Origin: Pseudonocardia sp. TRM90224
Lineage (GTDB): Bacteria > Actinomycetota > Actinomycetes > Mycobacteriales > Pseudonocardiaceae
Length of the DNA: 64,000 bases
Direction of reading: 5' to 3'
NCBI RefSeq assembly: GCF_021245725.1
Contig: NZ_JAJGSX010000003.1
Location: 372,001-436,000 of the forward strand
Positions 56,546 to 61,786 of this stretch are shown here, in pieces. The notes below the pieces were generated by a model. That model made no database searches. It saw only the letters and a list, made by a program, of their open reading frames with translations, and was not told where the DNA came from. Position numbers and translations under genes: made by a program. The first letter of the stretch is position 1, and each line of letters starts with the position of its first letter.

Positions 56546-57823
56546 TCAGGGCCAGCGGATCGCGTCGAAGAGCGCGCGCAACCGGTCGGCGCGGCGCGGC
56601 CGCCCGGTCGAGACCCAGGCGATCCGACCCAGCAGGTGCTCGCGGAACGCGGGATGCTCCGCGGTGTTCTGCTCGTCCGGGCCGGTGCGGGCGCAGTTGT
56701 GCAGCAACGCCCGCAGCGCGTCGTACTCGCGGCGAGCCGCTCCCGGCTCCGCGTTGACCACGAGCCCGGTGACCCGCTGCCGGTGGTGGGACGGCAGGAC
56801 ACGGGTCTTCGTGGCGTGCAGCCGGAAGCCCTCCTCCTCGGCGATCCGGCCGATGCGCGTGATGAGCCCGCTGGCCGGCAGCGTCGCCGCGGAGAACACG
56901 AGATCGTCGGCGTAGCGGCCGTACGTGGCACCGAGCGCCGCCGCGAGCCCGGCGAGGCGCCGATCGAGCCGGAACGCGAGGAGGTTCGCCGCCGCCGGTG
57001 ACGTCGGAGCACCCTGCGGCAGGTGCGGCGCGGCGAGCCGGTCGAGCAGCCGCCGCCGGGCCTCCCAGGCTCCCTCGGCGGCGGGCGCGGATCGCAGGAC
57101 GGGCTCCGGCGTGGCCGTCACGAGCAGCCCGGCCAGCGCCGCGGCCACGGCGGGCGGGTAGCCGGCGATGCGCATCAGGCCGGCCAGCCGCTCGCCGGTG
57201 ACGTGCCCGAAGAAGCCTTCGAGGTCAACCTTGACGACCATCGCACGACCCGCGTGCAGAGCGGCGAGCGTCGCGGGCGAGCGCCCGCGGACGTAGCCGT
57301 GCGCGGCGTCGTGCACCGGGATGCGCGCCAGCACGTGCCGGCCGACCCGGCGTTGCAGCTCCTGCAGGCGCGGACCGGGCGACTCCAGCAGTCGCGGTGT
57401 GCCGGAGCGGGCCGTGACCCAGCGGCGCCGGTAGTGGTGCAGCGGCCCGGCCGGCGTGCGGCGCAGCCACCCGCCCGGGTCGGCGAACCATTCGAGCTCC
57501 CCGTCGCGCAGGTCCAGGCCGAGCGCCAGCGCGTCAAGATCGGTCCACTGCTGCACCGGCCACCGCCAGATCGGCACGTCCGGTTCGAGATCGGGTGGGC
57601 GGGTGCCCGGCCGGGCTGCGAGCAGCCCTTCGACCTCGGTGACAACCCGCTCGAACGGCCGACGTGGCCGCGCGCGCCAGCGGCCGAGCAGGATCGCGAC
57701 GACATCGCCGATCTCCTCGGGGCTGCGCCACTTCCCGTGCTCCGCGAGCCGCTCGGTGAGCGGTTCGAGCTGCCACGGACCGGCCAGCGCCGCTGCGGCG
57801 ACGGTGTGGGGATCAGGAGCCAT
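56546..57823 (-). CDS. Retron-type reverse transcriptase
   Basis: 425 residues. RT motifs run in order: AAHGYVRGRSPATLAALHAG before motif A, KVDLEGFFG with catalytic Asp200, LPQGAPTSP (268-276), YADD (304-307), then TKTRV and RQRVTGL with the VTG tripeptide (351-353) of retron enzymes. There is no maturase, HNH or integrase domain, so it is not a group II intron protein. The N-terminal extension of about 150 residues is longer than in compact retron RTs and recalls the long myxobacterial ones. ATG 57823 is 28 nt after the msr-msd-like element. It should make multicopy single-stranded DNA from that RNA. Confidence 0.9.
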   Translation of the reverse strand: MAPDPHTVAAAALAGPWQLEPLTERLAEHGKWRSPEEIGDVVAILLGRWRARPRRPFERVVTEVEGLLAARPGTRPPDLEPDVPIWRWPVQQWTDLDALALGLDLRDGELEWFADPGGWLRRTPAGPLHHYRRRWVTARSGTPRLLESPGPRLQELQRRVGRHVLARIPVHDAAHGYVRGRSPATLAALHAGRAMVVKVDLEGFFGHVTGERLAGLMRIAGYPPAVAAALAGLLVTATPEPVLRSAPAAEGAWEARRRLLDRLAAPHLPQGAPTSPAAANLLAFRLDRRLAGLAAALGATYGRYADDLVFSAATLPASGLITRIGRIAEEEGFRLHATKTRVLPSHHRQRVTGLVVNAEPGAARREYDALRALLHNCARTGPDEQNTAEHPAFREHLLGRIAWVSTGRPRRADRLRALFDAIRWP

Positions 57824-57850
57824 CGGGCCCGCCCCGGTTGGGGTGGGAGT

Positions 57851-58044
57851 GGTGATGCAGCGGCGCGCGAGCGACCGGTGTTCCCGTCCGCCGCGCGCCG
57901 TCGGCACTCTTCCTGTGCCTCGCGCGCGCGGGACGCCATGCTGCGCAGAAGTGGTGCACCCCGGGGTTGCCCCGGAGCAGCAAGGCCTGCCGTGACGTGC
58001 ACGGGCAGGTTCTCGCCGTCTCGTTCGTACGCCGCTGCATCACC
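57851..58044 (-). ncRNA. Putative retron msr-msd RNA (a1-msr-msd-a2)
   Basis: Read on the minus strand, a perfect 15-bp inverted repeat GGTGATGCAGCGGCG encloses 164 nt, with a1 at 58044-58030 and a2 at 57865-57851. Inside are a hairpin at 58009-57986 (9-bp stem, one bulge, 5-nt loop) and a hairpin at 57975-57961 (6-bp stem, 3-nt loop). A long stem lies at 57935-57885 (CGTCC/GGACG, then seven CG-rich pairs, then GGCAC/GTGCC, loop of 7). Two short stems then one long stem between a1 and a2, just ahead of an RT gene, is the retron layout. The branching G and exact msr/msd border cannot be fixed by eye. Confidence 0.75.
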
Positions 58045-58095: not shown

Positions 58096-58290
58096 TCAGA
58101 GCCGGCGGAGCGGGCAGTCGCGGCACCGCACGGTGGCCGCGCGGCACTCCTCCTGCCGCGTCCGGCGCAGATCGGCCAGCTCACGCCGCGCCCGATCAGC
58201 GGATTCGCGCTGGTCGGCCACGGTGACCGCAACAGCGAGCGCCAGCAGGAACAGGAACGCCATGCCGACGAGGGCAACCATCAGATCCAT
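58096..58290 (-). CDS. Small single-pass membrane protein, candidate retron accessory
   Basis: 64 residues. An N-terminal membrane helix (LMVALVGMAFLFLLALAVAV) is followed by a charged helical segment (ADRARRELADLRRTRQEE) and a Cys-rich tail (Cys at CRAATVRCRDCPLRR). ATG 58290 has an excellent GGAGGAGG site 7-8 nt upstream, which makes it a real gene despite its size. It ends 51 nt before the a1 repeat on the same strand, so gene, RNA element and RT may form one transcript. I know no family for it. Confidence 0.65.
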   Translation of the reverse strand: MDLMVALVGMAFLFLLALAVAVTVADQRESADRARRELADLRRTRQEECRAATVRCRDCPLRRL

Positions 58291-58393: not shown

Positions 58394-58515
58394 CAGATCG
58401 CACCACTCGAAAAGCTTCGTAACGATTGGGCAGCTGACAGCGAGCCGATCCGTCGCGGGTGGAACGATCACCCGACCCTGCTGCTGAACGTGCGTGCGCA
58501 CGGGAAGGAACGCTT

Positions 58516-59373
58516 GTGGACGACTCCGCGGGTATGCGGCGCCGACTCCGTGTGGAGCTCCGGCGAATGCGCGGCGAGGCTGATCTCACGCAACGCGATG
58601 TCGCGGCGGCGCTGGACTGGTCGCCGTCGAAGGTGATCCGGATCGAGAGCGGCCAGGTGGGGATCAGCGTCACCGACCTTCGCGCGCTGCTCGCGCTCTA
58701 CGGCCTGACCGACGGCGACGCGGTGGACGAGCTGGCCGGCATGGCCCGCGGCTCGAAGCGGCAGCCGTTCTCCGACTACCGCGACGTCCTGTCCGCAGAG
58801 ACGATCCGGTTCTTCGGCTATGAGGCGTCCGCCTCGCTGATCCGCCACGTCCAGCCGCTCGTGGTCCCCGGGCTGCTGCAGACCGAGGACTACACGCGGG
58901 CGCTCCTGCACGCCTACGGCACCGACGCCAAGTCGATCGACCGGATCGTCGAGAGCCGCCGCGAACGGCAGGAGGCGCTCGACCGCGCGGAGCCGCCGGA
59001 GGTCTTCACGATCCTCGACGAGGCGGTGCTGCGCAGGCGCGTCGGCGGCACCGCGGTGATGACCCGCCAGCTGCGGCACCTGGAAGTGCTCGCCGAGCGG
59101 TCGAAGGTGACGATCCAGGTCGTACCGTTCGACCACGGCGCCTACGAGGCCATCCAGGGCCCGTTCGTGCACCTGGAGTTCCAGGTGCCGTCCGACCCCG
59201 ATGTCGTCTTCGTCGACAACGTGCGCAATGCCGCGACATTCATCGACGACGTGGAAATCACCGCACAGTTCCAGGAGTCGTTCTTCGCGCTCGAAGATCT
59301 TGCCGCGCCACCGGGGAAGTTCGGGCGCTTCGTCGAACGCGCGATCGGCAGCTTCTCCGAATCCGCCGAATAG
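58516..59373 (+). CDS. XRE-type helix-turn-helix regulator with DUF5753-like C-terminal domain
   Basis: 285 residues. The N-terminal Cro/CI-type helix-turn-helix (LTQRDVAAALDWSPSKVIRIESG) is followed by the large C-terminal domain typical of actinobacterial regulators (VVPGLLQTEDYTRALLHAY, then PFVHLEF). These genes usually pair with a DUF397 gene, as here. GTG 58516 follows a GGGAAGGA site; the open frame before it is not supported. It is divergent from the small membrane gene and retron element. Confidence 0.92.
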   Translation: MDDSAGMRRRLRVELRRMRGEADLTQRDVAAALDWSPSKVIRIESGQVGISVTDLRALLALYGLTDGDAVDELAGMARGSKRQPFSDYRDVLSAETIRFFGYEASASLIRHVQPLVVPGLLQTEDYTRALLHAYGTDAKSIDRIVESRRERQEALDRAEPPEVFTILDEAVLRRRVGGTAVMTRQLRHLEVLAERSKVTIQVVPFDHGAYEAIQGPFVHLEFQVPSDPDVVFVDNVRNAATFIDDVEITAQFQESFFALEDLAAPPGKFGRFVERAIGSFSESAE

Positions 59374-59501
59374 CCACGCCGGAACGATCTTCGACACTGC
59401 CTGGTCACGTGCTGCTGGCCACTCGTGGGTGGCAGGCAGCCGTGCCGCTACCTAGGCTGGCCGTGCCGCAGGGTGCACGGGCCGGATCGAGGGGTGGCGG
59501 G

Positions 59502-59705
59502 GTGTCCGATCAGGGGAACGGTTCCGATGGGTGGCGCAAGAGCTCGTTCAGCGGGTCCAACAACGAATGCGTCGAGGTTCGGCTGGGAAAGAACGAGGTC
59601 GAAGTCCGTGATTCAAAAAGGCCGCAGGGTTACGTTCTTCGGTTCACAACCGCCGAATGGTCGGTGTTCCTGAACGGAGTGCGGGCGGGCGAGTTCGACA
59701 CCTGA
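59502..59705 (+). CDS. DUF397 protein
   Basis: 67 residues. WRKSSFSGSNNECVEVRLG, VRDSKRP and the C-terminal FTTAEWSVFLNGVRAGEF are the complete DUF397 signature. The family almost always follows an XRE/DUF5753 regulator and may act as its small partner or antagonist. GTG 59502 gives the usual length; GTG 59463, just after a TAGGCT hexamer, would add 13 residues. Confidence 0.93.
   Translation: MSDQGNGSDGWRKSSFSGSNNECVEVRLGKNEVEVRDSKRPQGYVLRFTTAEWSVFLNGVRAGEFDT

Positions 59706-61786
<2,081 letters not shown>

Follow-up and report, generated by a model that had tools for sequence, protein, structure and literature searches.

The window, by which we mean the whole stretch of 64,000 nucleotides of Pseudonocardia DNA that was analysed, carries on its minus strand a reverse transcriptase (RT) gene preceded by a structured RNA, in the order a1-msr-msd-a2-RT. 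The RT open reading frame runs from the ATG at 57823 to the stop at 56546 and encodes 425 residues, in which the Asp200, LPQGAPTSP, YADD and VTG motifs named by the earlier note are all present. The spacing between repeat and RT is 27 nt (57824-57850, ahead of the ATG) and not the 28 nt that had been given. The features referred to below are these.

56546-57823, minus strand: retron RT of 425 aa, read as an open reading frame; residues ~1-95 are an N-terminal extension and the remainder is the RT core
57851-57865, minus strand: a2 arm (inverted repeat; covarying helix 1)
57851-58044, minus strand: the whole msr-msd noncoding RNA (ncRNA), as matched by the covariance model R1 described below
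57891-57931, minus strand: core of the long msd hairpin, predicted template for reverse transcription, with approximate ends (helix 3)
57959-57977, minus strand: msr hairpin 2, CUCCGGGGCAACCCCGGGG, nearly invariant (helix 2, 99.7% of cells paired)
57978-58018, minus strand: msr hairpin 1, whose length varies among relatives (centroid fold)
58020-58022, minus strand: invariant GAG at the inner end of the a1/a2 stem, identical in 42 of 42 family RNAs
58030-58044, minus strand: a1 arm of the msr-msd RNA (inverted repeat; covarying helix 1)

The two arms pair at 15 of 15 positions, which bears out the perfect 15-bp inverted repeat of the earlier note (58030-58044 with 57851-57865). They enclose 164 nt, and the stem that they form reaches 24 nt at 88% complementarity. 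This is the sole perfect 15-bp inverted repeat with a gap of 80-260 nt in the window. Such repeats arise 0.17 times per window in dinucleotide shuffles (n=60), and when the 600-nt region is shuffled 5000 times, 7 of the products contain one. The enclosed RNA has a folding energy of -119.3 kcal/mol (z -5.5), a value that none of 200 shuffles reaches, and its fold presents three hairpins, one of them longer than the other two, as had been read from the letters.

Comparison with related loci provides the evidence that this fold is conserved as a structure. Inspection of 46 family loci (L001-L030 and L051-L066) led to an accepted pair of a1/a2 arms in 42. Among the remaining four, the RNA was located later by R1 in L051, in L062 and in the genome of L005, where it lies ~1 kb upstream of the RT and is visible in a longer stretch (L034:6857-7043, the ncRNA being separated from the RT by ~1 kb of other sequence). 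The fourth, L064, gave no ncRNA by arm inspection or by R1, and the RT there is a different one (32% identity). The RNAalifold consensus of the 42 family RNAs holds 28 pairs, with changes on both sides in 19 of them; an alignment of homologous RT loci for covarying stems, proposed by the earlier note as a check on its call, thus turns out in its favour. Across the 42 RNAs, the share of paired cells is 97.5%; sliding the partners by 1-3 columns lowers it to 38-55%, and none of 500 shuffles attains any of five pairing measures. Because the arms were first found by their complementarity, the covariation of helix 1 is partly selected; helices 2 and 3 (double changes in 2 of 8 and 5 of 6 pairs, respectively) and the held-out loci are free of this selection bias.

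The held-out loci were searched with R1, a covariance model trained solely on the 42 family RNAs; detection of inverted repeats by itself proved noisy, and the model was relied on in its place. The test set comprised 70 of the 80 named RT loci, the ten from the training family being omitted and the Amycolatopsis loci L075 and L076 being retained. R1 matches 69 of the 70 at E<=1, of which 62 also pass the stricter E<=0.01, in several phyla, and all of these matches share the strand of the RT and precede it. The single miss is L130, whose sequence starts 158 nt before the RT match. Other R1 matches in the 1.03 Mb number five, opposite-strand echoes at identical places. The repeat and hairpins upstream of homologous RT genes, on which the earlier note had made its call depend, are therefore present in the relatives. 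At E<=0.5 the model matches 24 of 25 RT loci from the order, the phylum and Myxococcus (L168 is missed; L183 of this set shares its genome with L093 of the 70-locus set) and 39 of 40 family loci (L064 is missed), many of which overlap the training set. Among 80 viral contigs with other retron-like RTs, none is matched at E<=1. In the 9.38-Mb genome the single R1 match at E<=0.001 is 57851-58044 itself (126.7 bits, E 4.9e-19), a score that is not independent, the sequence being among the 42 training RNAs.

The RT leads to the same class of element. In PADLOC it scores highest with RT_other (528 bits) and RT_outgroup (507), followed by RT_XIII (272), and the best 25 of 55 PADLOC matches are every one a retron RT model; RT_other and RT_outgroup each also match 73 of 73 diverse relatives. 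Pfam returns RVT_1 only. The NCBIfam retron models St85, TIR and Ec67 match the RT below their cut-offs, and the best matches among solved structures are RTs of retron Ec86 (E ~1.7e-44). A grouping with non-retron clades, the other point on which the call had been made to hang, is not what these searches return: PADLOC, NCBIfam and the solved structures are all retron-led. D200, together with the Y and both D of YADD, is invariant in 73 of 73 aligned rows. Region X of the window RT reads LAALH, a NAXXH motif with A and H kept and N replaced; the N is also replaced in 2 of 16 validated retrons (PMC6868368). Region Y reads VTGLVVN, and many relatives have AG or other variants there. Judged by these motifs, the RT is catalytically complete. 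The genome (113 contigs) contains one match to it.

These results also bear on the reading that there is no retron here, the repeat being a product of chance or the RNA a cis-regulatory element beside a non-retron RT. Rfam gives the window RNA nothing at gathering score and three weak sub-threshold matches, as such a reading would have it; the covariation, the matches of the model at held-out loci and the retron-led matches of the RT argue against it, and we regard it as highly improbable. On sequence grounds, the window system is a genuine retron, and the a1-msr-msd-a2-RT arrangement called by the earlier note is supported.

The extension ahead of the RT core (residues ~1-95) is found across phyla, several relatives matching from query residue 2-8. 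Thirteen family RTs of 334-346 aa (L013, L015, L017-L022, L024-L026, L029 and L030) begin after the extension and keep the ncRNA and the RT core, so the extension was ruled out as a general effector; where present, it may still act as one. Two RT reading frames, those of L060 and L062, are longer still (696 and 830 aa), and in L062 several hundred in-frame bases interrupt the RT match.

Comparison with described systems places the window RT near models that carry little annotation. RT_other (PDLC02949) and RT_outgroup (PDLC03740, labelled retron) match it over nearly its full length, N-terminal extension included, and both are untyped, with neither effector nor mechanism assigned. The nearest typed model is that of type XIII retrons, at about half the RT_other score; unlike for type XIII retrons, no recurrent partner genes were found beside the lineage of the window RT. 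The Retron-Eco1 (Ec86) RT, the best solved-structure match, has its RT motifs in common with the window RT, but at ~320 aa it lacks the extension. Retron-Eco1 is a tripartite system with a cis effector.

A second comparison is with the myxobacterial retrons. Seven outlying Myxococcus RTs (L232-L238) split from the window clade with branch support of 100/100. We take these to be of the Retron-Mxa1 (Mx162)/Retron-Mxa2 (Mx65) type, partly on stem geometry: five of the seven loci have a 26-33-nt stem, three with a 213-nt gap. Their identity to the window RT is 39-41% over the aligned part, and R1 finds no convincing match at these loci (best 16.4 bits, E 0.087). RF00170 has no match in four genomes of myxobacterial loci, nor in any control, so that its absence there carries no weight. 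The window RT thus differs from the Mx162 type in lying outside that clade and in the lack of a convincing R1 match to the ncRNA there, the Myxococcus loci being putative members of that type. Related RTs are found in 27 of 27 Myxococcus genomes, with a close full-length one in 13. According to PMC6868368, the Mx162 and Mx65 RTs have an extended N-terminus like that of the window RT, the priming context of Mx65 is GAGC, which resembles the invariant GAG of the window RNA, and vertical inheritance is reported for Mx162; the same paper reports putative actinobacterial retrons. That some retrons lack proximal effectors is stated in a 2022 review (PMC8867640), and PADLOC uses msr-msd covariance models (PMC9252829). 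The window RNA is not described in the available portions of PMC12548924, PMC12262390, PMC4244168, PMC6498646 and PMC8934634, and a search of the titles and abstracts of one literature collection returned none on this arrangement.

The RT clade extends through Actinomycetota, Pseudomonadota, Planctomycetota, Acidobacteriota, Verrucomicrobiota, Gemmatimonadota and Myxococcota. On the tree, phylum requires 10 changes versus 23.7 for shuffled labels; the RT therefore looks largely inherited within groups, and some transfer or sampling noise looks to be present besides. One locus titled Vibrio cholerae 35D (L114) has an RT that falls among Arthrobacter and other Micrococcales in the tree, and it is probably mislabelled or a contaminant contig. 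At E<=1e-20 an RT match is found in 71 of 298 genomes of the order and in 6 of 396 of the phylum.

In Amycolatopsis the median dN/dS is 0.18 (range 0.11-0.26; 28 pairs from eight RTs), which argues that the RT is maintained in this genus. This purifying selection, seen in the one genus analysed, speaks against a dispensable, decaying retroelement without benefit to the host, as do the invariance of D200 and of the Y and both D of YADD and the finding that no mobility genes recur beside the RT among 126 flanking open reading frames. Remnants and scars of the retron are common (L191, L194, L202, L216, L219 and L225, described below), and they are what such a reading would lead one to expect; all told, we think it unlikely.

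The setting implied by the earlier note was the standard one of phage defence with an effector encoded in cis, and it is the part of that note that is not supported: no linked or fused effector gene was found for this RT lineage at the loci examined. Gene calling and clustering revealed no partner gene common to the 80 named loci, with the proviso that these neighbour counts come from a crude gene caller and that sequence clustering may miss diverged partners. The largest non-RT cluster occurs within 6 kb in 10 of the 80 loci, at varying positions, and reads as an ABC-type ATPase, judged from a matching cluster in the related set; the next-largest clusters are local synteny. The downstream gene is convergent with the RT in 43 of 76 loci, and 19 of 76 have a same-strand gene within 100 nt after the RT, its identity differing among loci. 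Pfam and PADLOC scans covered 126 of 148 flanking open reading frames. The most frequent Pfam group was pentapeptide repeats, with four members (the next has three), and the PADLOC matches were single and scattered.

Two neighbours of the window copy itself were considered as effectors and rejected. A 64-aa open reading frame (58096-58290, minus strand) lies ~50 nt upstream of the ncRNA and has a hydrophobic stretch at its N-terminus as well as a CxxC pair; among the matches listed for the related loci there was no convincing homologue of it. On the plus strand, at 58459-59705, an HTH_31/DUF5753 regulator followed by a DUF397 protein lies between the retron and a conserved gene at 59706-60416. 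Of 41 family loci, the window is the only one with an HTH or DUF397 match no more than 3 kb from the RT, and the pair therefore stands outside the retron unit.

A recurrent neighbourhood exists within the family. The gene dnaE2 lies upstream of the RT on the same strand in 17 of 40 relatives (L040-L042, L044-L046, L049, L051, L052, L057-L060, L062, L065, L066 and L068), with none to several open reading frames between, and the usual order is imuA'-imuB-dnaE2, then the RT; the names imuA', imuB and dnaE2 are our own assignment. A pentapeptide-repeat gene follows the RT in 15 of the 40 relatives (12 of the 17 dnaE2-linked ones and three others), in nine of the 15 within 30 bp of the RT match; the gene of L041 is partial. 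The pentapeptide gene is much the commoner of the two: 205 of 294 family genomes carry it (E<=1e-25), and the RT is found in 58 of 297 (E<=1e-3). Ten pentapeptide-gene loci were taken from genomes without a full RT beside that gene, and in nine of them a same-strand dnaE2 precedes; in L193 dnaE2 is on the opposite strand. An Amycolatopsis locus of this set carries a retron scar (L191:6546-6642) in which part of the msr and the last bases of the RT remain, most of the msd and of the RT being deleted; R1 still matches the scar with 41 bits. In L194 the tail of the RT remains. The pentapeptide-repeat protein was rejected as effector on these grounds, being commoner than the RT and persisting beside dnaE2 where the RT is gone, and the loss of the retron with this neighbour kept argues against a toxin restrained by the retron. 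The imuA'-imuB-dnaE2 genes were rejected as a partner, being a host locus that persists without the RT, and the PENTAPEPTIDE and mutasome lead was likewise set aside in the search for an effector, these neighbours outlasting the retron at RT-less sites.

The same neighbourhood raises the question of a host function in stress or DNA damage, with the retron co-expressed with the SOS mutasome imuA'-imuB-dnaE2 that lies nearby in several family genera. The same-strand dnaE2 upstream fits such a role. So does the occurrence of a perfect actinobacterial LexA-type box in 16 of the 17 dnaE2-linked loci versus 1 of 24 other loci scanned, with boxes located upstream of the retron cassette or of dnaE2; the scan used a presumed consensus of such boxes. 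The window copy, though, sits at plsC, and no LexA-type box with fewer than 2 mismatches to this consensus occurs in the 64-kb window. No shared site was seen outside the family among the 80 named loci, and the mutasome persists where the RT is missing. As an account of the retron in general, a DNA-damage role is rather doubtful.

The plsC site of the window provides a second view of gain and loss. We searched 60 Pseudonocardia genomes and compared the 30 best plsC loci. An RT stands beside plsC in five of the 30, the window included (L201, L208, L211, L213 and L218; the RT of L211 is truncated by the end of the locus, ~0.8 kb from plsC), and a decayed RT in three (L202, L216 and L219), while L225 has a decayed RT on the opposite side of plsC. 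The other 21 have no RT match within the 1.5-kb flanks, and in seven of these the conserved gene (59706-60416 in the window) follows within ~70 nt after plsC, with purA next. In L032 the gap between plsC and the conserved gene is occupied by the RNA and the RT alone. plsC was rejected as effector, since it is intact where the RT is decayed or absent. In both Amycolatopsis and Pseudonocardia there are thus sites that hold the retron, remnants of it or nothing, with the neighbouring genes intact, and these two host sites show that gain and loss concern essentially RNA plus RT.

With these comparisons made, a tripartite abortive-infection retron, in which the pentapeptide-repeat protein, the HTH/DUF397 pair, plsC or the 64-aa open reading frame would be the cis effector, appears very unlikely. 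The close spacing of RT and pentapeptide gene in relatives is what would recommend it, along with the HTH/DUF397 pair and the 64-aa open reading frame that flank the window copy. Each candidate fails on distribution: the pentapeptide gene outnumbers and outlives the RT beside dnaE2, the HTH/DUF397 pair is near the RT in the window alone, the 64-aa open reading frame is without a convincing homologue among the matches listed, and plsC stays intact at decayed and empty sites.

Our preferred reading, which we hold with considerable confidence, is that the locus is a two-component chromosomal retron, which should make msDNA and act without a cis-encoded effector. The msr-msd RNA (57851-58044, minus strand) folds through the a1/a2 stem, as the covariation shows. 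The guanosine that follows a1 in the invariant GAG, its last G at 58020, is predicted by analogy to be the priming residue for msDNA synthesis by the neighbouring RT. The RT would then copy the long msd hairpin into a short msDNA, probably ~60-80 nt, attached to the msr, and would remain bound to the RNA-DNA as a nucleoprotein. What is gained, decays and is lost at the two host sites is essentially this RNA and its RT, with no recognisable effector gene travelling along. In the last and weakest step, the RT-msDNA complex itself, or a partner elsewhere in the chromosome, might act as a sensor or defence component. As no recognisable partner toxin gene lies beside the retron or its relatives, it is most likely unlike the suicide-type retrons of phage defence.

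Within this two-component reading, our leading guess for function is defence through a partner in trans or through the RT-msDNA complex itself, and an effector may be encoded in trans. An antiphage retron whose defence is performed by that complex or by an effector elsewhere is a serious possibility, which we would put at somewhat below even. Those relatives of the RT that have been typed belong to defence retrons, and in Pseudonocardia the retron is patchily distributed and repeatedly lost, in keeping with the turnover of defence genes. Set against this are the distance of viral relatives (identity <=35% among the best 80 of 220 on viral contigs), the lack of any match to the RT at E 1e-40 among 72,556 plasmids, and the scatter of PADLOC matches around the RT, which are single occurrences among the 126 flanking open reading frames.

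A broader proposal can be put forward, at a level of confidence that is low: this RT lineage would represent a large, mostly chromosomal class of toxin-free bipartite retrons, in which the RT-msDNA complex benefits the host in a non-suicidal manner, and the tie to the SOS mutasome may hold in part of its range. If true, damage to DNA might, for example, trigger the synthesis of msDNA, which would then serve as a signal or supply the error-prone polymerase machinery with a single-stranded substrate. Genome-editing tools for high-GC genomes also gain a new starting point in the conserved RNA and the long RT. Retrons without effectors, from the first myxobacterial ones on, have posed a long-standing question. 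The lineage described here is widespread in culturable actinomycetes, comes with a defined ncRNA model and offers natural strains with an intact retron, with a decayed one or with a clean empty site, which makes the question of effector-less retrons testable.
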